Shown here: piece by piece, positions 10,240 through 56,490 of the stretch | Numbering within the stretch: the first letter of the stretch is position 1 | How the letters are laid out: every line of letters begins with the position of its first letter | Assembly: GCA_934045075.1 (NCBI GenBank) | Contig: OW203724.1 | Span: forward strand, 248,001 to 312,000 | Origin: Yponomeuta sedellus | Taxonomy: Eukaryota; Arthropoda; Insecta; Lepidoptera; Yponomeutidae | DNA: 64,000 bases | Reading direction: 5' to 3' | Notes under the pieces: generated by a model | What the model saw: only the letters and a program-made list of their open reading frames with translations | What the model was told of the DNA's origin: nothing | Database searches by the model: none | Program-made: the position numbers and the translations under genes

Positions 10240-10608
10240 TGTTTCATAAATAAAACTCAAGATATTAACTGTGTATAAACTGCTAAATTTATTGCTCCAA
10301 TAGAATACTATTCCAAACACTAGCCGATATGGCTGCCTCTTCCGAACTGACTCGCTTCTGGCTGCCGATCGCACCAGCAACCAAAAAATGCCTCCCTTCG
10401 ATGCCCATTCCAATTATTTTAGAATCGGCCAATCCGATATAAGAATGGATTTGACCAATCAAGGACAAGCATCTGTGTTGCCAGTAATTCAATACCAAAT
10501 TAGAAATATAAAATTGGCTTTCAATACTTTTACAAACAATATGATTTAAACCAAACATCTAATTGAAAGTTATTAGGAAATATAATTCAAATTAAACAAA
10601 TCATGACA
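10240..10608 (-). repeat. Gypsy 3' LTR
   Basis: On the minus strand it starts TGTCATGATTTG and ends TTATTTATGAAACA, with AATAAA signals near the end. It matches 26993-27364 at all but one internal base that I could find, plus a 3-base difference at the end. The internal sequence just before it ends in a GC-rich stretch containing GCCGGATGGCCGAA. Open frames crossing it are incidental. Confidence 0.85.
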
Positions 10609-10794: not shown

Positions 10795-13527
10795 TTATAA
10801 ACTATTTAAAGTACTTATTAACTCATAAATAATGTCATGATTGAATCGGCATATCTGGAATCGTGCATTTCGAGGAACCACGAGACATAATTTATCGTCA
10901 ACTTTCCTATAAATTTTATGATCTTTCAAAACGAAATTTTTCTTTATGTCTTTTGATTCCTCATCATTTCCTGGTTTAAGAATGTTCGCTATCCGACTTA
11001 TTTCAGGATCTGACATTTGTAAAGTCAAAAGCCAACTATCAGTTCCTATACGATAGACCATGCAAAGGTCATCTTCGTTGTGATCAGACAATTTTGAATT
11101 TCGACTTAGAGCGTCGACGTGGCCCATTTGAGCCCCTGGTCGATATTCTATTTCGAATGTAAACTCACTGATTTGCAACCACCACCTAGCTATACGTGGG
11201 ATAAGATCTCGTTTTGTCAAAGTAGTCCGTAGTGCGTGGCAATCTGTTAGTAGCTTAAAAGTCATTCCTAATAGGTACACCCGAAATTTCTTCAACGAAC
11301 AGACTATAGCTAGTGTCTCAAGCTCGTACGAATGCAAGTGACGTTCTTCATGCGTAGTTTGGCGACTAAAGTAGGCAACAGGCTTTAGAACGCGTGGGTT
11401 CTCTTGCCATTGCAAAAGTATGCCGCCTATTCCCAATGCACTAGCGTCCGTGTGTAGCTCTGTATCTAGTTTCGGGTTGTATAGAGATAATATGGGCCGT
11501 TCTATTAGTCTTTGTTTTAAATCGTTGAATGCTTTAGTTTCCAACTGAGTCCAATGAAATGGGACGTCCTTTTTTAGGAGATTCGTAAGCGGCCTGGCTA
11601 TTTCTCCATAACCTCTAATAAACCTCCGGAAGTAACTTGTTAGACCAAGAAACTGTCTAACCTCGTGAACTGACCTAGATACGGGAAAATCTTTGACTGC
11701 CAGTACCTTTTGCTCGTTAGGCTTTATACCCCTGGCAGATATCTCGTACCCAAGATAGTTGATAGTATCGTCAAAAAATCTACATTTCGAGAGTTTAAGC
11801 GTAAGGCCATTCTCTCGTAAGAGCTTCAACACTTCTTCCAACCTTTTGAATCCTTGTTCTACATCCACTGATGGCACAAGAATATCGTCCAAGTATGCAA
11901 ATGCAGACTCAAAACGCTTTGCACCTAGCATTTTATTAATGGCCCTTTGAAAGACTGCTGGGGCGTTAGCCAAACCAAACGGCATTCTTTTAAATTCAAA
12001 ATGGCCGTCCGGCGTTACGAAACCTGTGTATCGGCGACTTTTCTCTGCCATCGGTATCTGATAATAGCCGGACGCAAGATCTAAGGTTGTAAAAAGTGTA
12101 TTTCCACTAAGGTTAACTAGTTGATCATCAATTAGCGGCAATGGGAAACAATCTTTTTTTGTTTTATTGTTTAAGGCCCTAAAATCCACGCATAAACGTT
12201 GTTCGCCGGTTTTTTTACGGACCATTAATATTGGGCTTGCAAAGTCAGAGTTAGATTCTTGGATCACATCATTTTCAAGAAGTTCATTAATTATGCTTCG
12301 CACCTGTTCCCTTTCCGAAAATGATAATCTATATGGCCTATATATTACAGGTCTGTCATCTGTCAATTCAATTGTCATCTCCACGTTTTCCATGCATCCT
12401 ATCTCTGCGAGATTCATGGCAAAACAATCGCGATAAGATTGCAAAAGTTTATGCAATCTTTCCACATTGGAATCGCCAATATCTTTGCCCACTTTAATTT
12501 CAGATTTATCAAGAGGCTCTAGGGACGATAAGTCCCTCATGATTCTGTTAACGAGACAAATGTCTTTTTCAACGACGACCTGTGCTCTAGCTAAGACTGT
12601 ATTGGGCTCTAATACAAACGGGTCAGATGCGAAACTTGTGACAATCAAATGTCCCTTCCCCGATTTTATGGTGTAGACCCCCTGGTGTAGGTGGTATTCT
12701 TTACCCGGATCTCCACAAGTATATCCGTCCACATACACGTCACCAGTCATGGTGGGATCATCAGTTTGTACTTCGACCAAAGCAATCCTATCTATAGTGA
12801 TAGGACATGGAATTCTCAATTTAACGGTGTTACAAGGAATCTGTAGATCAGTGCTAAGACTCTGATGGAAGAGCAACTTAGAGTGGTCCTTCGTCACTGT
12901 CACGAATGGGAGTTCTGTGAAGTCTTGGCCGATGAGTAAAGCTGTTTTCATAAACTCGTCACTGACGACAAGTAACTCAACACGAGCCTCGACCTCATCC
13001 AACCTTAACATCACAGAGCTCTTATACAAAGGGGAGACTGAAGCATTTCCGAAGCCTTTTATTAATGGTAGTGCCGTTACCACCTTCACCAAGTTTAACT
13101 CACGAGCTTCAGACTCACGGATCAGGCTACATTCGCTCCCAAAGTCTATATAAGCTACGAAAATCTGACCGTTGGCAGAAACTTTCTTATAGAACTTGTC
13201 ATTACCGTCACTTGAAGTGGATATAGCCAGTGTTGTAGGTCCATTATCAGAGTTTAGTTTTTTATCTAAGCGAATCGATAATGGTTCGAGTTTACAGATT
13301 GGGGAGTTGTGACCGACTCTATTGCACTTTTGGCATTTGATTATGGGTTTAGGACATTTATAGAATGAATGACCTTTTGCTCTACAATTAAAGCAAGTTA
13401 TATCGTTAGTTAACGGAGCAGAAGCATTAATAGGCCGACTGGTGGGATTGTTTTCAAATCGCTTTCGGATAAATGGGGTAGCATCTAATACGCGCTGAGA
13501 ACTGAGATAACACAATACTAAACGCAT
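10795..13527 (-). pseudogene. Gypsy gag-pol: zinc knuckles, protease, RT, RNase H (integrase lost)
   Basis: This 910-codon frame continues the polyprotein begun at 19728. In order it has two CCHC zinc knuckles (residues 45-58 CFNCRAKGHSFYKC and 65-78), a retropepsin site with DFG (128-130) in place of the usual D-S/T-G, reverse transcriptase with VDFRALNN, MPFGLANAP and the YLDD catalytic box (545-548), and RNase H with TDASALGIGG (from 693). The frame ends near the expected start of the integrase zinc-binding region and the rest of integrase is absent, so the copy cannot integrate by itself. The codons before the knuckles are the tail of gag. The first methionine is only the first one after the LINE junction and is not a real start. 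Confidence 0.9.
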
Positions 13528-18984: not shown

Positions 18985-19728
18985 TCAATTCAATAAGTCT
19001 TCTGGTTCCTTACAATTCAGTACTTGTGCCCCGTTACGAATAGACTTATCGGTAATACCATGAATAACACAGTCTACAGCCTTCTTGCCTATAATTTCGC
19101 ATCGGTTAATCAGTGTCAATTTATCATAAAAATAATCTCGCAAACTCTCGTTACTACGACTAGTGCGATTAAGCATTTCTTCGAGAAGCCGACCATAATT
19201 TTGCTCATTCGGGAAAGCCTTCTTCAGCTTTACCTGCCATTCATTCCAATTGTAAACTACCGTAGGTAACGCTTCCAACCACGTTTTAGCGAGACCGGTT
19301 AATTTCTGGAGTGCAAAATGGATGGTTTGCTTCTCGTCCCATTCATAAATGTTGCTACATTCATTGACCTTATTTAACCAACTTTCAACACTCTGACTCT
19401 TACTAGATGGGTCGAATTCTGGTACAATATTATTTTGTTGATTGGTATTCAACCGTTGCGAATGCCCCTTCTCTTTGTTAAGTATTGAAATAAGCCTAGC
19501 TACCTCGTCTGCCTGAAGTCCGGGAGCCGATGAGATTGCTTCAAGTGGTGTGGATTCACAAGCTTCAAGAGGTGCTGCGCTAGTGGCTTCAACCTCCTCT
19601 ATGGTCCAGCAGGCTGTCTGAATAGACTCCCGTCGTCGTCGTAATGCTGGCGATCGAGTAACCGAAGACTTCCGCTTTCTGCTGCGGTCTTTCGCTCGAA
19701 AGGGGTTCATCCTCGAGAAGAAATTCAT
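18985..19728 (-). pseudogene. Gypsy gag, N-terminal part cut off by a LINE
   Basis: The frame opens at ATG 19728 (minus strand) with a basic serine/arginine-rich N-terminus (KDRSRKRKSSVTRSPALRRR). A capsid-like region follows: PEFDPSSKSQSVESWLNKV, then WDEKQTIHFALQKLTGLAKT, then NEQNYGRLLEEMLNRTSRS. This is the retrotransposon gag helical domain that assembles the particle. The frame ends after KEPEDLL, exactly at the CR1 tail. The related region before the zinc knuckles resumes at 13527. A second, more decayed gag of the same family is at 41311-42111. It is split and not functional as it stands. Confidence 0.85.
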
Positions 19729-20294
19729 ATATCAGTTTCATACATAGGTACATGTTTTACCTATTTTTAATAATTAATAATTGTATTATTAAGGGAGACC
19801 GTGCCGCGCTCGGCGAGTGAACAGTGTTTTTGCTGGCTTCTATATTTTTCTGTGCTTAAAAATAGTAAATCGAAGCCTATTGGAGTTAAAATTACATCAA
19901 AGTAAAGTTCTGTGATCGTGCCTTATGCTAAATATATTTTCTTAAGTGATGAGTGCCTGATTGTGCTTCAAAATCAAGTATTTTCCTTGCTACCCACCGG
20001 CCGACTCAACTCGCCGGGGCTTTGACCGCTCGTACAGTGACCTTGGCCGTGGGAACTGAGCCACCGACATCGCTCGCTACTGGTCGCGGTTGTGTGTGTG
20101 AGTGCGCGCGCGACGTTCTTGGTAGTACGTACACGCCCCAGCCAATCGATCTCTCACTCACTCAGACGCCTGCTATCGCTGTGCTGCGTGCGTGCGTTGC
20201 CCGAGCCGCTATCATTATTTTGTAAACATTGCGAACCGGACATCTCTTGGCCGCCTTACACTGCTGTTATCGCCTGCTTTTTGCTATTATCAAT

Positions 20295-21428
20295 ATGAAT
20301 TGCCAAGCTTGCGGGAAAGATATCTTACTGGGAGAACGGCTTGGTTGCGTGGGGTGCAAGAGCTGTTTTCATTACAGATGTCTCAACATGACTACAGCCT
20401 ATTTTATACCAAACAAGGCTGAACTGGTGAAGTCCTGGCGATGCCCCCGCTGCGCCAATGTTACCTCGCGAGAGCGGCGTGCCGCTCGGAATGATGACAC
20501 GCCGGTCCGTGAGCGCCGCGACGAAGTGGCGATGGGCATCGACATGTCCATCTGCGACGAGTCCCAAGGTAACACATCCGATCCAACTGAGCACACTGCT
20601 TCATTCGATGGAATGTACCGCAAGTTAGAGTCGTTACTTAATACGAAGCTCGATGACATCGCTAAGGAGTTTCATACATCTATAAACTTATTGAAGGCGG
20701 AGTTTACTAAGACGACCGATTTTCTGGGGGACCAAATAAGCGATCTCTCTAAAACCGTCCAATCCGTGGGCGACAAAGTTTTTCACCTCGAGCAGGAGAA
20801 CGATCGCCTGCGAACTGAGCTCGCCGCCATCACTCGAACCCAGAAGGAAACTCATGGTGCAGATCTCCAAGAAGTCATTGAGCAATTGCGCTCAGATCTG
20901 AATGATAGGGAGCAAGCGGCGCTACTGAACGACGTGGAGGTAACGGGGGTGCCAGAGTTTGAAGGAGAATCCTGTGGCCACATTGTGTCCATAATAGCCA
21001 CCAAGCTGGGCGTCGAGCTGGAGCTGCGGGACGTGGTGAACGCGTCCCGCGCCGGCCCGCGCCGTACTGCGCCTCTCCAAGGTGAAGCGGTGCCCCGCCC
21101 CCGGCCAATCGTCGTCAGTCTGTCTCGCCGCGTCCTTCGCGATGAACTCATCAAGAGCGCGAGGGTTCGTCGGGGAGCGGTGACCTCACCAGATCTTGGC
21201 CTCCCGCCGCACGAGCCGCGACGAGTTTATGTTAATGAGAGGCTAACTAAAACTAATAGAAGACTTTTTGGTTTGGCTCGTGACGCAGGTCGGGCCCTTA
21301 AGTGGCGTTTTGTCTGGTCCAGGGAAGGCCGCGTAAGTGTGCGGCGAGATGACTCATCCCCGGCCCACCGCATACGCTCTGAGTTGGACCTTAGCCGGGT
21401 TTTTGGCTCGCTGCCTGTTCGCTCTTAA
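20295..21428 (+). CDS. CR1 LINE ORF1 protein with PHD-like zinc finger
   Basis: The 377-residue frame starts at ATG 20295; upstream in-frame sequence lacks an ATG. Cysteines and one histidine in the order CQAC, CVGC, HYRC, CPRC give a PHD-like finger in the first ~55 residues. Residues of about 110-210 are heptad-rich and coiled-coil-like (LGDQISDLSKTVQ, HLEQENDRLRTEL). The C-terminal domain carries RPRPIVVSLSRRVLRDELI and VYVNERLTKTNRRLFGL. Gene order and architecture match the protein at 14010-15161. The likely role is RNA binding and packaging for the LINE. The frame is intact. Confidence 0.85.
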   Translation: MNCQACGKDILLGERLGCVGCKSCFHYRCLNMTTAYFIPNKAELVKSWRCPRCANVTSRERRAARNDDTPVRERRDEVAMGIDMSICDESQGNTSDPTEHTASFDGMYRKLESLLNTKLDDIAKEFHTSINLLKAEFTKTTDFLGDQISDLSKTVQSVGDKVFHLEQENDRLRTELAAITRTQKETHGADLQEVIEQLRSDLNDREQAALLNDVEVTGVPEFEGESCGHIVSIIATKLGVELELRDVVNASRAGPRRTAPLQGEAVPRPRPIVVSLSRRVLRDELIKSARVRRGAVTSPDLGLPPHEPRRVYVNERLTKTNRRLFGLARDAGRALKWRFVWSREGRVSVRRDDSSPAHRIRSELDLSRVFGSLPVRS

Positions 21429-21829
21429 ATGTTTAGTGCTTAACGTCTTATTACTTTATATGCCTGATTTGTTTAATGTCTCGTTAGCGTGTCTCTATAA
21501 CTGTGTTTCTCTCTGTAATTTGTTATTTCATCGAATTGCCATCTGTGTATTGCAGCGTAGGCGTGTGGCAGGTGTAAATGGGCTAATAATTGCAACGAAT
21601 AACCTTCGCGCTTGTAAAATAGGAGGAAAGCTGAGTGAAAGTCAAATATATACGTATATTTATTCTGCAATTATTTTATTTTTATTTTCTGATTATTTTA
21701 TTTACGTTCCGGATATTGTCATATTTTATTTCTATTGCATCTATCTAGGTTATCATAAACAGTGCACTGATCGACTTATAATAATTGTCGTTCTATTGGT
21801 ATTGCGGTACATTCTGGCCAGTCTGATTT

Positions 21830-24682
21830 ATGGCCATGTGTAAGAACAAACAATTTAAATTAGGTCTTTTTAACGCGGGCTCACTTGGTACCAACCATGA
21901 CGAGTTTCTGGTGGCTGTGGAGCAAGAACTGCCTGACATACTAGCAATTAATGAAACTTGGTTGCGAGCCAATGAAGAGGCGCGCGCGCCGTCCGTCGCT
22001 GGCTACCGCCTGCGTCATGTACCAAGGCCGCGTGAAGTCCGCTCGCGGGGCGGCGGTGTGGGCTTTTATATTAAATTAGGCCTTACTGCTCGTATCTGCC
22101 CTCACCCTCCAGCTCCAGCTTTCGTCGAGCAAATGTGGGTCCGCGTCAACATTAATGCCCGTAGACTGATTGTAGGTACCGCGTATCGACCCCCCTGGGT
22201 AAACGTTGATGTCTTTCTAGATGCAATCACAGAATCTGTCTCTTCTTTTACACACTATGACCATATTGTTTTAATGGGCGATCTGAACATTAATCTTCTT
22301 GTGAATGACTCAAATTCAAGAAGACTTGTTGACTTTTTGGAATCCCTCAGTTTAAAAAACCACGTTACGGAACCGACACATTTTACATCACACAGCCAGT
22401 CGCTTATTGACGTCATTTGTACTGATGCGCCAGTGAAAAATGTTTCAGTTCAAAATATTGCTGAGCTTGGCGGCCATGCTATGATTATGGTAAATTTAGT
22501 TTTAAAAAAACAAATTTCTTCCCCGAAAAAAATTACGTTCAGGCCTCTAGCGTCCATTAATAGGGAGATGTTTGAAGTTGACTTATCACGAATAGACTGG
22601 AATAACGTGACAAATTGCGCGAATGTAAAGACGGCGGTTTATTTTTTAAATGCCTCGCTGGTAGGACTTTTTGACAGCCATGCCCCTGAAAAGTCGATTG
22701 TTGTCAGAGAACACAGTAAGCCTTGGCTTACCCAGAATGTACGTCACATGATGTATCTTAGAAATAGTGCACACTGCAGGTTCTTAAGTACAAAATCGGA
22801 CTTACATCGATCTGAATATAAGGCACTAAAACATTTGGTTAATGTAAGTATGTTCTTTGAAAAAAAGGCCTATTATGAACATAACATCAATAAAAACAGA
22901 AAAAATGGTAAAATGCTGTGGCGCAATTTAAAGCGGTCTGTTTTGTCTAACCCGACAAAATCTTATATACCGGAGTATTTGCTATATCCTGACGAGATAA
23001 ATGACCATTTTATGAATCTACCTATTAATTCTCGTGTAAATATTTCACACTTGACATTTTTTGAATTTAACCGGTACAATGACAATATTAATTTCAATTT
23101 ACATACAGTGGGCAGCAACACCATTTTAAAAATTATTTTAGATCTGACATCCAACGCGAAAGGGGTTGACAGTATAAACAGGGATATGATACTCCTTACT
23201 ATTCCTGATACTCTAAATGCGATAACGCATATCGTCAACCAATCGATCCTGTCCTGTACATTCCCGGATCAGTGGAAGGTTGCCACCGTTACTCCACTAC
23301 CTAAGAACAGTAATCCTACTAGTTTTAACGACTTGAGGCCTATCAGTATTCTGCCGTACCTTTCGAAGATATTGGAAAAGGTCGTTTACAACCAAGTCAT
23401 TAAATACTGTGAAGCTAATCATATTATACCCTCACATCAATCGGGCTTTCGAAAATTCCATAGCACTTCCACTGCTCTCCTCGATGTTGTGGACAATATC
23501 TTGGGAGCTCAGGACGAGGGTAGGGGCTCCTTTCTCGGTTTATTAGACTTTTCCAAGGCCTTTGACTCAATAAACTTTGACTTGCTCCTTTCCAAACTTT
23601 CCTATTATGGTTTTGAGAGCAAAACTATAAAGTGGTTCGAGAGCTACTTATATGGCCGACTTCAGCAAGTGGTGGTACAGAAGGCAGATGGGTCTTACCT
23701 TAGGTCTAGATTTCGCGATGTGAGGAGAGGAGTTCCTCAGGGTTCGATCCTTGGACCTCTCCTTTATACCATATTTTCAGCCGATATTGTCAAATGTATT
23801 AAACACTGTAAACACCACTTGTATGCGGATGATTTACAAATTTACATCTCTTGTGATGCTGACAATGTTGCTGCTGCTACGGTTCAATTAAATGAAGACC
23901 TAGATGCTATCCATAAATGGTGTGTAAATAATTGTCTACTGCTAAATCAAAGTAAATCCAAAATAATGGTTATGGGTTCTAAAAAACAAAAAGAGTTAAT
24001 CATGGCATCAGACCCCTTGATCTGTGTAAATGGCAAGCGTCTCGAATTTGTCGATGAGGCCCGTAACTTGGGTGTAGTGATGGACAGTAACTTACGCTTT
24101 GAAAAACACGTAGTTGAACTAGCGCGTAACTGCTTCTTCCGACTTAAATTGCTTTACCAACTGCAGAGATTTCTGAGCGTAAACATTAGGGTTCTTCTCT
24201 GCGATTCTCTAGTACTCTCTAAACTAGCGTATGCCTTTACCGTATACGGTCCTTGTATTTACGGTAAAACACAGAAATTGCTTCAACGAGTCCAGAACGC
24301 TTGTGCCCGTTATTGCTTTGGCATTCCCGCTCGGACGCATGTTACGCCATACATTAATAATGCCAATCTCTTAAAGATGGATAATAGGCTAAAACTTTTT
24401 ATGGCAACTTTACTTTTCGGTGTAGTCACGTTGAAAAAACCAGTGTACTTGTTTGAAAAACTCATTTGGAGGAGAGCTATGGGAGGCGCCACTAGGATCA
24501 CATCCAACCCACTTCGTGTGCCACATCACCGAACTGCCGCTTTCCGCGGCAGCTTCCGGTTTCAGGCAACGAAGTGCTGGAACGACATACCTCCTCCTCT
24601 CCGCCAAATAAAATCTAGGGCTACCTTTAGGTTACAACTTAGAAAGCTTCTGCTGGACCGGCAGAAATTGCTTTCGGTGTAA
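21830..24682 (+). CDS. CR1 LINE ORF2: endonuclease and reverse transcriptase
   Basis: The 950-residue frame starts at ATG 21830 (MAMCKNKQFKLGLFNAGSLG). The endonuclease motifs are INETWLRA, VGTAYRPPWV, VLMGDLNINL and a closing GHAM. The reverse transcriptase carries DLRPISILPYLSKILEKVVY, GFRKFHSTSTALLDVVDNI, LLDFSKAFDSINF, RRGVPQGSILGPLLY and the YADD box (LYADDLQIY). A basic C-terminal segment contains RVQNACARYCFGI. No frameshift or premature stop was seen. Residue order and spacing track the ORF2 at 15591 throughout, with a clearly different sequence, so the two are separate CR1 lineages. With an open ORF1 as well, this copy could be mobile if transcribed. Confidence 0.92.
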   Translation: MAMCKNKQFKLGLFNAGSLGTNHDEFLVAVEQELPDILAINETWLRANEEARAPSVAGYRLRHVPRPREVRSRGGGVGFYIKLGLTARICPHPPAPAFVEQMWVRVNINARRLIVGTAYRPPWVNVDVFLDAITESVSSFTHYDHIVLMGDLNINLLVNDSNSRRLVDFLESLSLKNHVTEPTHFTSHSQSLIDVICTDAPVKNVSVQNIAELGGHAMIMVNLVLKKQISSPKKITFRPLASINREMFEVDLSRIDWNNVTNCANVKTAVYFLNASLVGLFDSHAPEKSIVVREHSKPWLTQNVRHMMYLRNSAHCRFLSTKSDLHRSEYKALKHLVNVSMFFEKKAYYEHNINKNRKNGKMLWRNLKRSVLSNPTKSYIPEYLLYPDEINDHFMNLPINSRVNISHLTFFEFNRYNDNINFNLHTVGSNTILKIILDLTSNAKGVDSINRDMILLTIPDTLNAITHIVNQSILSCTFPDQWKVATVTPLPKNSNPTSFNDLRPISILPYLSKILEKVVYNQVIKYCEANHIIPSHQSGFRKFHSTSTALLDVVDNILGAQDEGRGSFLGLLDFSKAFDSINFDLLLSKLSYYGFESKTIKWFESYLYGRLQQVVVQKADGSYLRSRFRDVRRGVPQGSILGPLLYTIFSADIVKCIKHCKHHLYADDLQIYISCDADNVAAATVQLNEDLDAIHKWCVNNCLLLNQSKSKIMVMGSKKQKELIMASDPLICVNGKRLEFVDEARNLGVVMDSNLRFEKHVVELARNCFFRLKLLYQLQRFLSVNIRVLLCDSLVLSKLAYAFTVYGPCIYGKTQKLLQRVQNACARYCFGIPARTHVTPYINNANLLKMDNRLKLFMATLLFGVVTLKKPVYLFEKLIWRRAMGGATRITSNPLRVPHHRTAAFRGSFRFQATKCWNDIPPPLRQIKSRATFRLQLRKLLLDRQKLLSV

Positions 24683-25345
24683 CTAAATTTTATATTATTT
24701 TATCATTCCTTACTTTAATTTTTGGTGGATTTTTGATTCTATGGACATGTCTATTTATTATTACTATTATATTATAATTATGAATTTTTAACATGGCCAC
24801 TAATGCTAATAATAATAATTTTAATTTTCGCTATATGACATCACATCACATAATTAATTTATTTCACGACATTTGCGTAATTACTCGTTATTATTTTATT
24901 TTCATTAATTTACAACTTGCGGCTTCGTGTACGTGAAGTTCAGGATCGTTAAATATTATTTACGCACAGCTATTCAAGTAACGCATTATATACAATTTAC
25001 ACTTTATATAATTATCTTAGTTAATATTACCTATACCTCAGTTTGGCTCTTTTTTCCTCTACGAGTTGAGCACGCCGTCTTCTCTGGGTACCGGCATAAT
25101 ACCAGCGCTGGAGTATTTCCAGCACATGCTGAGCCGGAGCCCATTTGCATCTGCCACACCCACGTAACTAATTGACTGTATTTCTGGCACTTGCCATACC
25201 TGGTATGGCAAAAATGGATGTTCTTGTTTTCTGTGTCTGTTTTGTTGCTTTCATCTTTTTATTTTATTCTTTGTGTTATGTACGTGTTATGTGTGTGTGA
25301 AAATGCAAATAAATGGTTTATCTATCTATCTATCTATCTATCTAT
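24683..25345 (+). repeat. LINE 3' UTR ending in (ATCT)n
   Basis: About 630 bp of AT-rich UTR ends in seven ATCT units after AAATAAATGGTTT. The same UTR is found reversed at 7938-8615. Open frames in it recur in both copies only because the UTR is shared. Confidence 0.85.
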
Positions 25346-25499: not shown

Positions 25500-26178
25500 A
25501 TAGACACACTTAGCCCATCAGCTGGTTAGATATACGAGTATGGTACTAAACTATGGACACACTTGGCCCACGTCGTGGTACACATAACCACTGAAATTTG
25601 GACACACTTGGCCCAACTGGGGACACACATGGTACTAAACTATGGACACACTTGGCCCACCTGGTGACACACACGGCCACTAAACAATGGACACACTTGG
25701 CCCACCTGGTGACACACACGGCCACTAAACAATGGACACACTTGGCCCACCTGGTGACACACACGGCCACTAAACAATGGACACACTTGGCCCAGCTGGT
25801 GACACACACGGCCACTAAACAATGGACACACTTGGCCCAGCTGGTGACACACACGGCCACTAAACAATGGACACACTTGGCCCACCTGGTGACACACACG
25901 GCCACTAAACAATGGACACACTTGGCCCACCTGGTGACACACACGGCCACTAAACAATGGACACACTTGGCCCACCTGGTGACACACACGGCCACTAAAC
26001 AATGGACACACTTGGCCCACCTGGTGACACACACGGCCACTAAACAATGGACACACTTGGCCCAGCTGGTGACACACACGGCCACTAAACAATGGACACA
26101 CTTGGCCCACCTGGTGACACACACGGCCACTAAACAATGGACACACTTGGCCCAGCTGGCGACACACATGGCCGCTGT
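25500..26178. repeat. 45-bp minisatellite, about 15 copies
   Basis: The unit is GGACACACTTGGCCCACCTG, then GTGACACACACGGCCACTAA, then ACAAT. Central copies are almost identical, differing mainly at one C/G site (CCCACCTGG or CCCAGCTGG). The outer copies are diverged. Because 45 is divisible by three and the unit lacks stops in several frames, ~200-codon frames appear on both strands; they are artefacts of the repeat. It lies in the stretch between gypsy gag and its 5' LTR. Confidence 0.95.
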
Positions 26179-26233
26179 GATCCATATTATGGATAATTAA
26201 CATAATTCCGATAACTGGCATCCTTCTTAAACA

Positions 26234-26882
26234 TTACCTGGTTCTATTATCAGGGTGTAGCCCTAATCGAATGGCCCCAGGTAAGCTTTACCACATTAAC
26301 ATTGTCGTGGAGTACCCGACCAAATGCTAATCTAGTACAAAGGCATGCCAACCACCCATAATTACGTCCATTATACAAAACATTTTACGACTAATATCAC
26401 AGTTTTTCTACCTCAGCTGGATCCGCTATCGGAGGGTAGCCCCGATCAAACGGTCCCAGCCATTGCATAACCATAATTAACATTATCAAGGAGTACCCTG
26501 ACCAAATGTTAATCTAGTATCCTACCGTGCTATTTGTCGTTCGGAGTAATAAATTTTACGGATGCCTATTCTATTGCTCGTTAGCACGCTAGCATTTTAA
26601 GCCCTACCTGGTTCTATTATCAGGGAGTAGCCCTAATCAAATGGCCCCAGGTAGGCGTTATCACATTAGCATTGTCATGGAGTACCCGACCAAATGCTAA
26701 TCTAATACGATGTCAAGCGAACCAACGATTAATTTGGTAAAAACAATTTTAGAATAATCTCACTGCTTTTAAACATTAGTTGGATCCGTTATCGGAGGGT
26801 AGCCCCGATCAAACGAGTCCAGCCACTGCAAAACCACATTAACGTTATCAAGGAGTGCCCTGACCAAACGTTAATCCAGTAT
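26234..26882 (-). repeat. Four ~102-nt structured units in an alternating A-B-A-B order
   Basis: The units are A1 26236-26337, B1 26415-26519, A2 26606-26707 and B2 26777-26881. A1 and A2 resemble each other more than they resemble B1 and B2, so the array is a duplicated A-B pair of ~365 bp. Each unit holds two nested hairpins. One has stems CCTGG/CCAGG (A) or GCTGG/CCAGC (B) around an inner AGGG-type stem. The other has TTAGCATT/AATGCTAA (A2), TTAACATT/AATGTTAA (B1) or TTAACGTT/AACGTTAA (B2) around a GGAGTACC loop. The spacers between units are far less conserved. The array sits in the presumed 5' leader of the minus-strand gypsy element. No function is known to me. Confidence 0.85.
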
Positions 26883-26969
26883 ATAAAAGCGTAATTTAAA
26901 ATAAACCTTAAAAAAAAAGAAATTATAATAGTAAAATCAATAATTATACTTTTTCCATACCTTATGTGG

Positions 26970-26992
26970 GCTGTAGAAGTCGTCCCCGCTTC
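26970..26992 (-). promoter_or_regulatory. Primer-binding-site-like stretch after gypsy 5' LTR
   Basis: On the minus strand, GAAGCGGGGACGAC follows directly after the LTR end. The third gypsy fragment has a comparable TCAGAAGTGGGAT after its LTR-like region (about 42197-42210). The position and similarity suggest a tRNA-type primer site, but the priming tRNA was not identified. Confidence 0.4.
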
Positions 26993-27364
26993 TGAGTTTT
27001 CATAAATAAAACTCAAGATATTAACTGTGTATAAACTGCTAAATTTATTGCTCCAATAGAATACTATTCCAAACACTAGCCGATATGGCTGCCTCTTCCG
27101 AACTGACTCGCTTCTGGCTGCCGATCGCACCAGCAACCAAAAAATGCCTCCCTTCCATGCCCATTCCAATTATTTTAGAATCGGCCAATCCGATATAAGA
27201 ATGGATTTGACCAATCAAGGACAAGCATCTGTGTTGCCAGTAATTCAATACCAAATTAGAAATATAAAATTGGCTTTCAATACTTTTACAAACAATATGA
27301 TTTAAACCAAACATCTAATTGAAAGTTATTAGGAAATATAATTCAAATTAAACAAATCATGACA
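26993..27364 (-). repeat. Gypsy 5' LTR
   Basis: On the minus strand it begins TGTCATGATTTG and ends GAAAACTCA. It is nearly identical to the LTR at 10240-10608 (one internal substitution seen, plus a 3-base difference at the end). It lies about 120 bp upstream of the FLYWCH exon and points away from it. Confidence 0.85.
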
Positions 27365-27729: not shown

Positions 27730-28130
27730 TGACGGTTAAAAGCGCAGTGGCAGCGCGGCGCGGCGGAGCAAGCAGATCGCGCGCGGCTTTTTAAAATTTT
27801 TACAGATTAAGATAGTTTGAAAACGCATTCACGAAGGAATATTATGAGGACTGCAGGTTAATGTGATTGAGTGCGCATTATAATATTGCGAGGACGCATT
27901 AATTAGGTACCTACCTAAATACTAGAAAAGGGAGAGGAGATTGAGTATGCAACAACATCAAAATGCGGTCCGTGTGTATCTTCTCATAAACGGCACTAAA
28001 TTGGGACAGGCTGTAAATGTATTTCTACTACTTAGCAAAGAAAATCTCGTTGGATCCATTATGGATCTAGCCACTGGATCTATAGGGAACAAACGATAAA
28101 ATTCGGTCGGTGTGTAACGCAAGTAATGCA
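27730..28130. other. No gene seen
   Basis: Intergenic or intronic DNA with a GC-rich patch at 27740-27790 (GGCAGCGCGGCGCGGCGGAG) after the FLYWCH exon. No ORF or known element. Confidence 0.4.
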
Positions 28131-28213
28131 ATTTGCTTAAGTCAGATGTCGCTGCCTTTACGTAATACAGAGAATAGTGTAAAGAGGTTCAAAATTTCAC
28201 TGATGCCGTGAGT

Positions 28214-28287
28214 CGCCCATTGGCTCAATTGGTAGAGGGCTGGCACGGATAGCCAGAGGTTGCGGGTTCGAATCCCGGCATGGGTGA
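28214..28287 (+). tRNA. tRNA-like gene, copy 1
   Basis: It has a 7-bp acceptor stem (CGCCCAT/ATGGGTG), D arm, a 5-bp anticodon stem CTGGC/GCCAG with loop ACGGATA, and a T arm around GGTTCGAAT. Base 33 of the loop is C, not the invariant U, and a D-arm base is changed (GAGGGC). It is more likely a tRNA-derived pseudogene than a working tRNA. A nominal GGA anticodon should not be trusted. Confidence 0.45.
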
Positions 28288-28521
28288 AATTTTTAGCCTC
28301 TAAATAGGTTTTTAAATTTGTTCCTTAGCACGGGTTAGTGCATTAAAAATAAAAATAGTGTAATCATGTGGGTACAGTGATATCGTTCCGATGTTAAACC
28401 TAACTGCAAAGTAGGTAGTCGGGGCTGTAAGTAATGCAATTTGCTTATGTCAGATGTCGCTGCCTGTACGTAATACAGAGAATAGTGTAAAGAGGTTCGA
28501 AATTTCACTGATGCCGTGAGT

Positions 28522-28595
28522 CGCCCATTGGCTCAATTGGTAGAGCGCTGGTACGGATAGCCAGAGGTTGCGGGTTCGAATCCCGGCATGGGTGA
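28522..28595 (+). tRNA. tRNA-like gene, copy 2
   Basis: It folds as copy 1, with D arm GCTC/GAGC intact. One base of the anticodon stem differs (CTGGT), which leaves a wobble pair. The B-box sequence GGTTCGAATCC is intact, so internal polymerase III promotion is conceivable. Confidence 0.45.
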
Positions 28596-28830
28596 AATTT
28601 TTAGCCTCTAAATAGGTTTTTAAATTTGTTCCTTAGCACGGGTTAGTGCATTAAAAATAAAAAATAGTGTAATCATGTGGGTACAATGATATCGTTCCGA
28701 TGTTAAACCTAACTGCAAAGTAGGTAGTCGGGGCTGTAAGTAATGCAATTTGGTTAAGTCAGATGTCGCTGCCTGTACGTAATTCAGAGAATAGTGAAAA
28801 GAGGTTCGAAATTTCACTGATGCCGTGAGT

Positions 28831-28904
28831 CACCCATTGGCTCAATTGGTAGAGCGCTGGCACGGATAGCCAGAGGTTGCGGGTTCCAATCCCGGCATGG
28901 GTGA
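28831..28904 (+). tRNA. tRNA-like gene, copy 3
   Basis: The acceptor stem is fully paired (CACCCAT/ATGGGTG). The T loop and B box are altered (GGTTCCAATCC), which should weaken both promoter and fold. Confidence 0.4.
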
Positions 28905-29138
28905 AATTTTTAGCCTCTAAATTGGTTTTTAAATTTGTTCCTTAGCACGGGTTAGTGTATTAAAATAAAAATAGTATAATCATGTGGGTACAGTGATATC
29001 GTTCCGATGTTAAACCTAACTGCAAAGTAGGTAGTCGGGGCTGTAAGTGATGCAATCGACTTCAGCCAGATGTCGCTGTCTGTACGTAATACAGAGAATA
29101 GTGTATAGAGGTTCGAAATTTTACTGATGCCGGTGAGT

Positions 29139-29213
29139 CACCCATTGGCTCAGTTGGATAGAGCGCTGGCACGGATAGCCAGAGGTTGCGGGTTCGAATC
29201 CCGGCATGGGTGA
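29139..29213 (+). tRNA. tRNA-like gene, copy 4
   Basis: It has a fully paired acceptor stem and an intact B box, plus one extra base in the D loop (CAGTTGGATAGAGC). It is closest to the isolated copy at 56365-56439. Confidence 0.45.
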
Positions 29214-29530
29214 AATTTTTAGCCTCTAAATAGGTTTTTAAATTTGTTCCTTAGCACGGGTTAGTGCATTAAAATAAAAATAGTATAACCATTAGACCAT
29301 ATTCATTATACTAGCTAAAAAGTATCGTAAATTTTTAATGCAAGCAGGTGGTATGTACCCATTACTTTATCAAACAAGTATATCAGTAAAAATATTTATG
29401 ATTTGCCGAGACATGTCCATTGTCGAACAAAAGAAAATAAAGCAATAAACTAAAATAAAATAATCTAACGATTTAAAGCATGTAAGCAGAACAGATGGAC
29501 CTTTAAATTTTATCGTTTCACTGAGTCACA

Positions 29531-44020: not shown

Positions 44021-46257
44021 CTACAAAAAACACGACTAGCTTGGGTTGTGTCAGGCGCGATTTCGTTAACCCTAAATTTCTTATTAAATAATCAGCTCAA
44101 AGCCTTTTGGCGCGAAAGTGACTGCGAACAATTGGAAGCACCCAAGGATGAGATACTATAGTGCGAAAAGTCGTTCGATAATCACTCACGTCCCGTGACT
44201 ACCGCTAGTGGCATTTTTCCGAGCGCTTCCGTGCTTCGCAAGGCACGCTAAGCCGTTGGTGCCGGCTGTCATATAATGGCAGTCGTTAAGCCATGTCAGA
44301 GGCCTTATGGGCGGCTTGAGAACTTCTGACAGTAAGGCCCGCCACTGTCTTACAATCCTCCACCAACCCGGACTTGGCCCCCGTGGTGGAGCCAAGTCCG
44401 GGTTGGTGGACCCGTGCCCCAGCAGTGGGGACATTCGAGGGTTGATAACGAACGAATCACTCAAGAAGTTCTGAGGGTAACTTTATTGTGAGCATTCCCT
44501 TAAAAGAGCCAGCTTCATCCCTTGGTAAATCGATTCACATAGCTCACAAACGATTACAATACTTAGAGTAAAAATTGTCTCGAAACCCTCCACTCAAAAA
44601 TAATTATGTAAAACCGATGAGAGAACTTGAAGACCCATCGGTCACATGATCGAAATTACCGAGAGCTCATCTCTTGAGTCCCCTAACTATTTGCCTCATC
44701 ACGCAGTGATAAACCCTGAAAAAGTCACCACGCCTGTTAATAGTATTCGATGCATCTTGTCCTACCGATTCTGGAAAGTCTTTAAACGATATTCAATACA
44801 AGGGTACAATGCTTCAGGATGACCTACTTTCAATTTTATTACGATTTCGACTGCATAGATATGTTGTAAATGCGGACATACAGAAAATTTATCGTAACAT
44901 CTACCTACACCCTGACCAACAAAAATTACAGTGCATTTTGTGGCGGGAAAATCCGTACAAAAAACTAAAAACCTACTCACTTACTACACTTAGTTTCGGT
45001 CTCAAGTGTGCACCTTACCTAGCAACACGCTGTTTGTTGCAATTATCTAATGAAAACATAAACCGGTTTCCAGCGGCTCTGGCCATACGATCCGACTTCT
45101 ATATGGATGACCTGCTCCATGGGGGAGACGATGAGGTAATGGTTGCAGAGACTGCCGCGCAGATATGCAGCATCCTGAGCGGCGCGAATTTTCATCTACG
45201 GAAGTGGAAAACTAACTCACCGGCCATCTTACAAGCAGTGAGGACTACAAATATACCTACTACTACACACATCAACACTCCAACCGAGTTTGGAAGCACA
45301 ACACACAAAGTGCTTGGCCTAGCATGGTCACACGACACCGATAATTTGTTATATATGCTGAAAGAACAGTCGTTACCTAAGTCATTAACTAAACGAAAGG
45401 TCTTGTCACTAGCCGCATCCATTTTTGACCCCTTAGGTCTTATTGCTCCAGTTTTAATCACTGCCAAATGCTTCATACAAAGCCTCTGGCTAGAAAGGTC
45501 AGGCTGGGACACCGAATTATCAATTACACAATCAACCGAATGGAAACAATTTTATAAAAACCTATTTTGTCTTAACACATTAACGGTGCCGAGGCATGTT
45601 AATATTCCCAATTATAAAACCATAGAACTGCACGGTTATTCTGATGCTTCATTAACGGCATTTGGCTGCGCGATTTTTCTAAGGAGTATAGACCACCAGG
45701 GCGCCATTCAGGTTAGATGACTTTGTGCTCGCTCACGAGTGGCAAGACGTGAAACTATTCCGAGGTTAGAATTACGAGCAGCTACCTTATTAGAAAAACT
45801 ATATAATAAGGTTAAAACTTCACTACCAACATGTCAATTATCTAAATTTTACCTATGGTGTGACTCAAACGTGGTGTTAGCTTGGATAAACACACCACTA
45901 GAGAAATTACCTGAATATATTAGAAACAGAGTCACAAAAATCAAAGACCTGACTAGCATTCCTGCGTGGCACTGGGTTAGTTCTAAGGACAACCCAGCTG
46001 ATTTACTCACTACAGGTTTACCAGCAGATAAACTACAGAGTACGTCACTGTGGTGGCAGGGACCTGCTTGGTTATCTGAAGCCAAGTTTGAATGGCTCGA
46101 GTTATCGACAAAAAATAATACAACAGAGTTAACTACACACAAAGTATGTAACGTTTCGATCGACTCTCAATCTAACAAACTAATACAAGAACTTTTTTCA
46201 AGGTTTTCTAGTTTTACCAAACTTTATCGCGTGTTTGCATGCTTAGCTAATCAAAAT
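44021..46257 (+). pseudogene. BEL reverse transcriptase and RNase H
   Basis: BEL coding sequence resumes after the gypsy (LQKTRLAWVVSGAIS), is cut at 44188 by a SINE-like insert, and continues with PLKEPASSLGKS and VFDASCPTDSGKSLND. The RT core lies in 44809-45720 with QDDLLSILLRFRLH, LSFGLKCAPYLATRCLLQL and the catalytic FYMDDLLHGG, followed by SDASLTAFGCAIFL of RNase H. A frame change at about 45720 leads to ETIPRLELRAATLLEKLY, WCDSNVVLAWI and WHWVSSKDNPADLLT. A tag, several stops between 44460 and 44760, and a frameshift make it inactive. It ends where the jockey-type LINE enters. Confidence 0.85.
44189..44455. mobile_element. SINE-like or LINE-tail insert with 8-bp target duplication and long hairpin
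   Basis: ATCACTCA lies at 44181-44188 and 44456-44463. The insert ends with CCCCAGCAGTGGGGACATTC, like the 3' ends of RTE-type LINEs and their SINE partners. It carries a perfect 20-bp-arm hairpin (44359-44378 with 44391-44410, starting TCCACCAACCCGG, loop of 12 nt). No ORF. Confidence 0.75.
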
Positions 46258-49200
46258 TTACAGGGCGGTTTTTCTGGTAAATTACTAGAATTAGAGTTAT
46301 TTCTAGAACAACATAGAGTAGATGTACTCTGTGTCACTGAGCACTGGCTACTAGAGTCCCAAATGAATTTTTCTGTAAATAATTATGAAATAGCCAGTTG
46401 CTTTAATAGAAAGTCTGCATTGCATGGTAGATCTTTAATAATAGTAAATAGTAGTTTGAAGTATAAAGAACGAAAAGATATTAGCAGACTTTCTGTTGAA
46501 AAAGTTGTAGAACTATCATGTGTTGAACTGGCTAAGCATATTGTAGTAAGCGTATACAGGCCCCCCGCCAGTGACTACAGTTTATTTGAATCCGTACTAG
46601 AGGATGTTTTAAAGGTAGCTTCAAGTAGTAGCAAGAAAGTTATAGTATGTGGAGATTTTAATATAGACTTGCTGGTAGACTCCGTTTTAAATAACAAATT
46701 AAAACTTATTTTCAAGTCTTTTAATTTAGTTAATATTTTCTTAGAGCCTTCTAGGATTACCGAAAACACAGCCACCTGTCTTGACAATGTATTCTGCGAC
46801 TGTGAATTTTCGCATTGTTCTACAGTAACTTGCTTAAAGTCAGACCACAATGGTCAAATTGTCCACTTTGAAGCAGATTTAAAAAAAAAGGAGCAAGCTA
46901 TAATTTATCGGCCCATTACAGCAAAAAAGATGGAATTATTTAGAAATTACATACAAAGTAGCTTACCTACACAAAATAATAAGACCCTTAATGCAAATGC
47001 TCATTATGGAGATTTATTCAAAGTTGTTTCAGGTAGTTTTGAAAAAGTTTTTAAATTAAAAAAGTTATCATCAAAAAGAAATAAAGTAGCATTTAGTGAA
47101 TGGGCTACTGCCGGCATCCGAAAAAGCAGGGACACACTATATGCGCTATATGAGAAAAAAACATACACATATGACCCCAGTTTTATACAGTATGTTAAAC
47201 TATATTCAAAATTATTTAAGGCCGTCTGCCACAAAGCAAAATGTGAGCATATAAAATCAAAAATCCTTCAATCGTCTAATAAATCCAGAACAATTTGGGC
47301 TATTATAAATAAGGAAACCGGTAAATCCAAATCAGGAGATCGCGAACTTTCACTTAAAATAGATGATAAATTAATAACCTCAAATGAAGACATTGCTACG
47401 GCTTTTGAACAGTTCTTTACAAATGTTCCAATTGTAACGACAGCTCCTTTAGACTCTTCTCCAGCTCTTGCTGAAAGTATTTTGAAAGACAATGTCCCCC
47501 CATGCCATCACGATTTTTCGTTCGACTATATTGAAGCCCATACCGTGATTAAATCGTTTAAAAAGCTAAAGCTTAAAAAAACTGAGGACTTATGGGGTAT
47601 GTCAGTAATAGTAGTTAGCTCAGTAATCGATACCCTAGCACCCCATTTAGCCAAAATCTTTAACAAATGTTTAGATGAGGGTATATTCCCTGATCTAATG
47701 AAATATAGTAGGCTCGTTCCTTTATTTAAAAGCGGTGATAAGCAAGATCCCACAAATTTCAGACCAGTCTCAGTTCTACCCGTTTTGAGTAAAATATTCG
47801 AGAAGATAGTTCTAGGTCAGCTGCTTACACATTTCAATGACTATCAACTTCTCCATGGTCAGCAATTCGGCTTTACGCAAGGGCGCTCTACAACGGACGC
47901 CGGCGTCATGTTAGTTAAACATATATTTAGTGCATGGGAAGAGCGCAAGGATGCTATAGGCGTATTCTGTGACTTGTCGAAAGCATTTGATTGCGTTGAC
48001 CATAAAACCCTTCTTTTAAAATTAAAGCACTATGGTATAAACGGGAATAGCCTAAAACTTATAACATCATATTTAGAAGGGAGAGTTCAAAGAGCTGATA
48101 TAAATAGAACTAAATCTTCAGGGTCAGAGGTCAGGATAGGAGTGCCACAGGGATCGATTTTGGGGCCGTTCCTCTTCCTCGTATATGTAAATGATTTGCC
48201 GTTCATGGTTCAAAATATGTCAGAGATAGTATTATTTGCAGATGACACGTCTCTTATTTTTAAAATTAAGAGACAAGAAAATGACCTTGACAATACAAAT
48301 AATGCTCTCTCTCGGGTACTAAATTGGTTTACTTCTAATAACTTATTGTTAAATTCAAAAAAGACGAAATGTATAAAGTTCACTCTTCCAAATGTCAAAA
48401 CGGTAGACAGCAATGTTTTACTGGGGAATGACAAATTAGACCTTGTGAATGAAACTGTATTCCTAGGTATCACAATTGATGCAAAGCTTCAATGGGGTCC
48501 TCATGTAGAAAAATTAGCAAATAGGCTTAGTTCAGCAGCATATGCAGTCAAAAGAATTAGGGAACTAACTGACGTCGCAACTGCTAGGCTTGTTTATTTT
48601 AGTTACTTCCATAGTCTTATGTCCTATGGCATACTACTGTGGGGACGGGCAGCAGACATTGAGACCATCTTCGTCTTGCAGAAGAGAGCGATCAGATTCA
48701 TTTATAGGCTGGGTAGTAGAGATTCGTTAAGAGATTTCTTTAAAGAAACTAACATCCTGACAGTTGCCAGTCAGTATATATATGAAAACATTATGTACGT
48801 TAGGAAAAATATCAGTAACTTTAAAACTTTAGGTAGCCAACACAATGTAAATACTAGAAATAAACATAAACTTTTGTTCCCACTATTTAGGCTGGCAAAG
48901 GTTAATACATCCTTCATGGGGCATTGTATACGCTTCTATAATAAAATCCCTGAAGATATATTAAGCTTGCCTGAATCGCGGTTCAAAAAATATGTTAAGC
49001 ACACTTTGTGCCAAAAGGGCTACTATAACATAAAGGATTATTTAGATGACAATGAGGTCTGGAATGAAAGCCAGTACAATGTATGAGTTCTATGTTCAAA
49101 ATAATTATGTAAACTATGTAAATTAAGGACTTTTGAAAAGACTAAGTTAGGAGTTTTTTTGTCCATTTTTTCTCCTAAATGATCTAGATTTTGAAATGGA

Positions 49201-56159: not shown

Positions 56160-56490
56160 TAAAAACCTATTTAGAGGTTTTTAAATTTGTTCCCTAGCAC
56201 GGGTCAGTGCATTAAAAATAAAAATAGTGTAATTGATTTATCACTGCCGACTGCAGTGATGCCGGGCTGTAAGTGATGCAATCTGCTTCAGCCAGATGTC
56301 GCTGCCTGTACGTAATACAGCGAATAGTGTATAGAGGTTCGAAATTTCACTGATGCCGGTGAGTCACCCATTGGCTCAGTTGGATAGAGCGCTGGCACGG
56401 AGAGCCAGAGGTCGCGGGTTCGAATCCCGGCATGGGTGGAATTTTTTGCCTCTAAATAGGTTTTTAAATTTGTTCCTTAGCGTCTTAGTA
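56160..56490 (+). repeat. Isolated fifth copy of the ~308-bp tRNA-like repeat
   Basis: It carries the same leader (CAGATGTCGCTGCC, GTAATACAG) and trailer (TTGCCTCTAAATAGG) as the array at 28.1-29.3 kb, plus a detached trailer fragment at 56165-56232. It resembles array copy 4 most. Confidence 0.85.
56365..56439 (+). tRNA. tRNA-like gene, copy 5
   Basis: Acceptor CACCCAT/ATGGGTG, D arm with one extra loop base, anticodon arm CTGGC/GCCAG with loop ACGGAGA, and B box GGTTCGAATCC. The loop lacks the invariant U33, so this is probably a tRNA-derived pseudogene. Confidence 0.4.

Follow-up and report, generated by a model that had tools for sequence, protein, structure and literature searches.

Introduction

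The stem-loops of the MMTV 5′ UTR form a psi-type packaging signal bound by Gag, according to the cited part of PMC8096270. For Ty1 and Ty3, the part of PMC4974528 used here describes the packaging sequences and structures as not clearly defined, and the word 'hairpin' is absent from its main text. The export signal and the psi packaging element of Drosophila gypsy are both stated to be unknown in the section of PMC4276936 that we cite. The 5′ UTR of the same element holds an insulator of 340 bp with 12 Su(Hw) sites (PMC2374998, cited part). The stem-loops of the Egl-BicD system (K10 TLS and I-factor ILS) are characterised in the cited part of PMC13186709 by 3′-strand bulges that separate two helices, each 6 bp or longer, and by no obvious sequence conservation.

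Here we describe a conserved gag-sense RNA hairpin that is present in two to eight copies between the primer-binding site (PBS) and gag in five Ty3/gypsy lineages of one genome. It was found in a 64-kb window (the whole stretch of Yponomeuta sedellus DNA that was analysed). As far as the cited part of the MMTV account goes, the array resembles retroviral psi in that structured leader hairpins lie between PBS and gag and the Gag has zinc knuckles; unlike psi, a single hairpin type is repeated at a spacing of ~53 to 135 nt within arrays, its bulge and loop sequences are different, and it is known from sequence alone. It shares with the Ty1/Ty3 encapsidation determinants, as partly described in the source above, an LTR retrotransposon as host and cis signals near the RNA ends. 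With the Drosophila gypsy insulator, in the portion of the account cited, it has in common a multi-copy site in the corresponding part of a gypsy element; unlike the insulator it has no Su(Hw) cluster, and what is conserved is pairing in the gag-strand RNA, not a DNA word. The Egl-BicD signals, in the cited description, are likewise bulged stem-loops in insect mRNAs and in a retrotransposon RNA, whereas the window's hairpin is bulged on the 5′ strand and has a conserved loop, and its outer stem is often contiguous for only 3 to 5 bp. Among the open-licence PMC papers listed in our searches, judged mostly by titles and the openings of abstracts, we recognised no description of such hairpin arrays.

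Results and Discussion

The gypsy element and its leader

The array is carried by a minus-strand Ty3/gypsy element, in the leader between the 5′ LTR/PBS and gag. The 367-bp 5′ LTR (26998–27364) is 99.7% identical to the 3′ LTR of equal length (10242–10608), both on the minus strand. Directly past the 5′ LTR lies a probable PBS (26980–26996, minus strand; sense CTCAGAAGCGGGGACGA), assigned by position and conservation; a relative of it, TTCAGAAG[TC]GGGAT, is present in the remaining hairpin lineages. On the sense strand at 26975–26993, also just past the 5′ LTR, AGAAG...CTTCT can pair across the probable PBS. The hairpin array then occupies the stretch 118 to 762 nt past the 5′ LTR, as read on the sense strand. 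Downstream of it the leader contains a 45-nt tandem array of 14 copies with 95% matches (25545–26173, minus strand, by TRF), which gave no match to the hairpin covariance model.

The gypsy element contains nested non-LTR elements of plus-strand orientation. One of them (20229–25342, 5′ end approximate), recognised by a PHD/Baculo_FP ORF and an EN-RT ORF with domain matches, splits the leader and has its 3′ end at ~25342. The gag piece of the gypsy element, an ORF of 247 aa (18985–19728, minus strand), has a Retrotrans_gag match slightly under the Pfam cut-off. The pol ORF (10795–13527, minus strand) has Pfam matches to RT and RNase H; it stops ~190 nt from the 3′ LTR with no integrase match in Pfam, and integrase may be absent from this copy. 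The window's LTR has five matches elsewhere, 73 to 91% identical and some of them partial, and the leader is absent from the loci fetched for them (L004–L008, with 1.5-kb flanks).

An array of eight copies of one hairpin

The first-pass annotation had described four units in A-B-A-B order, and this arrangement was borne out: A1 lies at 26236–26336, B1 at 26415–26518, A2 at 26606–26706 and B2 at 26778–26880, the A-B pair recurring at a spacing of 362 to 370 nt. The stems, the compensatory changes and the loops were also as it had written them, with CUACC loops present in the B units in addition. It had numbered a stem 1 and a stem 2 within the units and missed their equivalence. A loose core-pattern scan, with folding of each match, showed that the two stems in a unit are always one and the same hairpin motif. 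The array is therefore made up of eight hairpin copies; the layout in four units stands and the A/B distinction becomes secondary.

On the gag-sense strand the hairpin consists of an outer stem, a 2-nt 5′ bulge, a 7-bp inner stem and a loop of the form [CU](N)AC(N), namely C(N)AC(N) or UACU. The inner stem is mostly GUCAGGG/CCYUGAU, with G-U, A-U or G-C as its first pair. Over all lineages the bulge is UG in 21, CG in nine and GG in two of 32 distinct rows. The phage coat-protein operator (MS2) and HIV TAR are protein-read hairpins in which a bulge likewise lies at a set distance from a short loop. We know of no sequence kinship between these and the gypsy hairpin, and the analogy is one of bulge-loop layout only.

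Numbered in the sense direction, all on the minus strand, hairpins 1 and 2 belong to B2 (26834–26880, loop CACU, 55.6 bits and confirmed by folding; 26778–26825, loop CUACC, 49.5 bits). Hairpins 3 and 4 belong to A2 (26661–26706, loop UACU, 45.6 bits; 26606–26653, loop CUACU, 52.6 bits), hairpins 5 and 6 to B1 (26472–26518, loop UACU, 54.3 bits; 26415–26462, loop CUACC, 48.8 bits), and hairpins 7 and 8 to A1 (26291–26336, loop UACU, 45.9 bits; 26236–26283, loop CUACA, 51.1 bits). In hairpins 3 and 7 the inner stem is one nucleotide shorter on the 5′ side. These are scores of covariance model R1, which was built with the window's own hairpins included, so that they are not independent; the best R1 score in the rest of the window was 12.9 bits.

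Pairing is conserved while the arms change

The duplicated units of the window allow hairpins and their surroundings to be compared directly. The hairpins are identical at 171 of 189 positions and the spacers and linkers at 58 of 86 (Fisher p = 6.7 × 10−6); seven of the nine changed pairs still pair. In an alignment of 16 hairpins (18, less two near-identical ones), 81.4% of the paired cells can pair, compared with 34.6 to 45.0% for a slid partner and 69.6% in shuffles, and none of 500 shuffles reached the observed value. Changes on both sides were seen in 54 cells versus 26.2 in shuffles. A larger set, 57 model matches comprising 32 distinct rows, gave 86.2% versus 37.3 to 48.5% (slid) and 74.4% (shuffled; 0/500) and 94 double changes versus 38.0, in an alignment fitted to the covariance model, which favours pairing. 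The number of pairs with double changes was not clearly above shuffles in either set: 12 of 17 in this one (9.5 in shuffles; reached by 10/500) and 12 of 20 in the 16 hairpins (10.6; 99/500). The number of pair types was not above shuffles in either the 16 hairpins (180/500 reached it) or the 32 rows (340/500).

The arms of homologous gypsy copies, which would drift independently if pairing did not matter, do not do so. Less diverged than their spacers, the hairpins are, as far as these comparisons within one genome can tell, under purifying selection as RNA structure. The proposal of a selected RNA element in the gypsy leader is thus upheld by the covarying pairs, together with the gag-sense polarity considered below. 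A functionless tandem-repeat by-product of reverse transcription is hardly to be expected here. Tandem repeats are indeed common in the leaders of this clade, for example the 45-nt repeat (14 copies) in the window and a 37-nt repeat in L016, but the hairpins are less diverged than the spacers, covary, and recur in five lineages with unlike spacers.

The hairpins have gag-strand polarity

All four units fold better than their own dinucleotide shuffles on either strand. The minimum energies of A1, B1, A2 and B2 are −42.5, −45.4, −45.8 and −38.1 kcal/mol on the minus strand and −30.3, −31.2, −35.0 and −33.4 kcal/mol on the plus strand, and thus lower on the minus strand in all four. The z-scores are lower on the minus strand in three units (A1, −4.8 vs −2.6; B1, −5.1 vs −3.6; A2, −5.2 vs −3.7), whereas B2 goes the other way (−3.5 minus vs −4.7 plus). 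No strand bias was seen in the sliding-window z-scores of the array (−1.34 sense, −1.68 antisense).

The cores of the 32 distinct hairpins contain 279 Watson-Crick, 56 G-U, five A-C and two other cells, so that the G-U argument for minus-strand RNA made in the first-pass annotation holds in numbers. When cells are collapsed to lineage and pair type, G-U still exceeds A-C (18 vs 3, p = 0.0015). Pairing is less strict in the outer stem (104 Watson-Crick, 18 G-U, two A-C, 64 other). A structural descriptor scan gave matches in nine of 16 leaders or leader pieces, all sense, none antisense and about none in shuffles; it misses two of the window's eight hairpins, those with the shortened inner stem. 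The excess of G-U over A-C points to hairpins acting as sense (gag-strand) RNA. Since the B2 z-score and the sliding-window z-scores go against a strand claim, the minus polarity rests on the G-U/A-C asymmetry and the constant gag-sense orientation.

The same asymmetry bears on a DNA-level reading, in which the array is a multi-copy protein site (insulator or enhancer) comparable to the Su(Hw) array, its palindromes reflecting a dimeric DNA-binding protein. The place in the 5′ UTR and the multi-copy form are shared with the gypsy insulator (PMC2374998, in the part cited). However, the arms vary in sequence and still pair, and G-T is accepted much more readily than A-C, two mismatches that a DNA palindrome would not tell apart. 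Su(Hw) consensus matches are also near absent from units and leader. The 12-bp consensus has no exact and one 1-mismatch match in the leader, and a longer consensus with up to four mismatches has none in the units and four in the leader versus 6.6 expected from the window rate. The earlier comparison with a Su(Hw) insulator was rejected in the absence of a cluster of consensus sites, and we regard a DNA site of any such kind as very improbable.

No known RNA family was recognised. The whole window gave only five tRNA matches in Rfam 15, none within the leader, and the stretch 25500–27300 together with six related loci gave only matches far under the gathering scores. The candidate of a known family was rejected accordingly, in agreement with the first-pass annotation, which knew of no named family with this shape. 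The hairpin is a plain bulged one, and a ribozyme, one of the functions first suggested, is unsupported because there is no match to an Rfam ribozyme and because a loop of 4 to 5 nt would leave little room for a catalytic core. Dimerisation by loop-loop contact might be read from the h1 loops of the A units and of B1, which with their closing G give the self-complementary GUAC. Most loops (CACA, CUACA, CAACA and others) are not self-complementary, however, and dimerisation or self-cleavage as the main function can be given scarcely any weight.

Recurrence in five gypsy lineages

The genome searched comprises 657.5 Mb in 57 contigs, and counts of genome matches are to be read as lower bounds. 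The same hairpin was found in 17 insertions belonging to five Ty3/gypsy gag lineages, always on the gag strand: the window's element, four L034-type and eight L019-type insertions, and two each of the L074 and L076 types. A genome-wide gag search scored 150 of 454 candidate places; 16 of the 17 insertions are among these, and the seventeenth (C24:5951k) has a gag by tblastn. Six hairpin copies each are present in L034, L035, L038 and L040, whose gag is 47 to 48% identical to the window's. L019–L025 and L027 have two copies each, one of the two weaker at 25 bits. Pattern scans of both genome strands gave eight copies in L074, seven in L075 and two model matches each in L076 and L077; these four loci took no part in building the covariance model. 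L076 and L077 also contain two further hairpins of the same geometry with the inner stem GCUGRGG/CUYCAGC. From one leader comparison, L020, L021, L023, L024 and L027 were left out as near duplicates.

In every one of the 17 insertions gag lies downstream on the same strand. The PBS-like sequence lies upstream of the hairpins in all five lineages, though it was not found in the single copy L077; its distance to the start of the first hairpin's inner stem is 77 to 195 nt (measured in L019, L034 and L076). The hairpins thus have the location of psi, a structured RNA 3′ of the PBS and near the start of gag.

Three genome pattern scans allowing up to two mismatches each gave at least 29 matches, versus 7, 1 and 3 with the reversed patterns as controls. 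Of these, 28, 28 and 29 lie inside gypsy leaders on the gag strand, including all matches with no or one mismatch. The two outside known leaders have two mismatches each (C25:13657103, control 7; C3:12677022, control 1). Two variant-core scans placed 4/4 and 18/18 matches in hairpin-bearing leaders. A 17-nt hairpin-arm word had two 1-mismatch matches elsewhere (L013 and L014; control 1), where only short words are common with the units. The DNA of the array matched nowhere in the genome except its own place, which, with the confinement of close matches to gypsy leaders, speaks against an ordinary satellite. Neither gag nor two exact patterns found relatives in viral contigs.

The likely reader of the hairpin

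The array is probably a tag for recognition of the element's RNA. We favour, with confidence a little short of even, the reading that it is the element's own multi-copy cis-acting signal, most likely a packaging signal recognised by Gag. The bulge and the loop, with the inner stem setting the distance between them, would constitute a protein site, and the repeated copies would provide multivalency. The most likely reader would be the element's Gag, through a nucleocapsid part with two CCHC zinc knuckles. The array might then nucleate packaging of the full-length genomic RNA, perhaps with a part in trafficking or dimerisation, and would be a multi-copy counterpart of retroviral psi. Two CCHC motifs are present in all eight gag pieces examined, two of which are from hairpin lineages (L019 and L034), the window's gag not being among them; the Gag is thus of the kind with nucleocapsid zinc knuckles. 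The packaging reading would fit the place past the PBS, the multi-copy form, the sense polarity, the two-knuckle Gag and the lack of close copies elsewhere in the genome. The site was not observed in any host gene, which favours an element-encoded reader.

Other observations stand against Gag as the reader. The hairpin core is kept although the Gag pieces across hairpin lineages are only ~43 to 61% identical to the window's, and a conserved host protein would fit this too. Moreover, the L016 lineage and others share the two knuckles yet have no hairpin. Since such knuckle-bearing relatives exist and only 16 of the 150 scored gag places belong to insertions found to have the hairpin, Gags of this type do not generally need it.

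The main rival is accordingly a conserved host reader. A host RNA-binding protein would dock on the hairpins and export the unspliced RNA from the nucleus or carry it to some place in the cell, the array being a constitutive-transport-like or localisation element. Such a reader fits nearly as well as Gag, and is better suited to the sharing of bulge and loop across lineages with divergent Gags. The replacement of the hairpin by different arrays in other lineages speaks for it, as does the gypsy export signal, given as unknown in the cited section of PMC4276936. No host copy of the core with no or one mismatch was found in the three genome scans, though a looser host site would escape them. The hairpin also departs from the common features given for Egl-BicD signals in the part of PMC13186709 cited, as its bulge lies on the 5′ strand, not the 3′ strand, and its contiguous outer helix is often 3 to 5 bp long, below the 6-bp minimum for the upper and lower helix there. 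Overall we consider a host reader rather unlikely.

A role in translation, in which the array helps ribosomes to reach gag past many upstream AUGs by internal entry, shunting or reinitiation, appears improbable. The leader stretches examined do contain 15 (L019), 16 (L034) and 31 (window) AUGs, and two IRESs are stated for Drosophila gypsy in the section of PMC4276936 cited. Against this, leaders with other arrays are also rich in AUGs (22 in L028, 15 in L016) and the copy number of the hairpin ranges from two to eight. A stop-start signal, UAAUG of the 3′ arm, was considered and rejected, as it is present in only 19 of the 32 distinct hairpins.

With packaging as the preferred reading, the hairpin is a concrete candidate signal for gypsy RNA, supported by covariation and recurring in five lineages, and it is amenable to tests on short synthetic RNAs. 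Recognition by Gag, if borne out, would suggest a way in which related elements of a single genome avoid mixing their RNAs.

Other arrays in the same leader position

Lineages with the hairpin are dispersed over a 25-row gag tree, and as the tree flags long branches this scatter is to be read with caution. The rows nearest to the window's (L016, L017 and L026; support 81/87) have no hairpin, and L034 and its kin group with hairpin-less lineages (97/97). A separate branch is made up of L078/L081 with L079/L080. The leaders of L016, L028, L036, L037, L039, L041 and L044 gave no hairpin of the window's kind; in the last five of these, arrays of other hairpins were looked for by tandem-repeat scan alone.

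A different array occupies the same leader position in L028 and L030–L033. Its core, CC[AG]UGUAGGUGU, is nearly invariant and sits on variable paired arms, 13 times in L028. The arms are 77% paired over six positions versus 31 to 60% when slid (18 distinct copies from four loci). In L016, L017, L018 and L026, which by gag are closest to the window's element, the leaders contain 37-nt tandem repeats in eight to nine copies, many of which can fold as a hairpin; these give no covariation evidence because their stems hardly vary.

Given that the L028 lineage has a different array in the same place, leader arrays of small hairpins resembling protein sites may follow a common design whose parts can be exchanged. 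A still more tentative proposal than that of a Gag-read packaging signal is that they represent a new class of genome tag of LTR retroelements, in which modular arrays between PBS and gag, made of the one small bulged hairpin or, in sister lineages, of other hairpins, would serve as codes for recognition by Gag and would be gained, lost or swapped as gypsy lineages diverge.

Other repeats in the window

Outside the gypsy element, a ~309-nt tandem repeat of 3.8 copies (28121–29292) contains a tRNA-Ser(GGA)-like sequence in each copy. A unit similar to it lies at 56364–56440, with further matches in several of the fetched loci, and it is a tRNA-derived repeat. A 47-nt tandem array of 15 copies is present at 1057–1763. 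An open frame of 1115 aa (45739–49086) starts with weak similarity to the final part of a Pao peptidase A17 domain and continues into a non-LTR endonuclease-RT, as if one element had inserted in frame into another.
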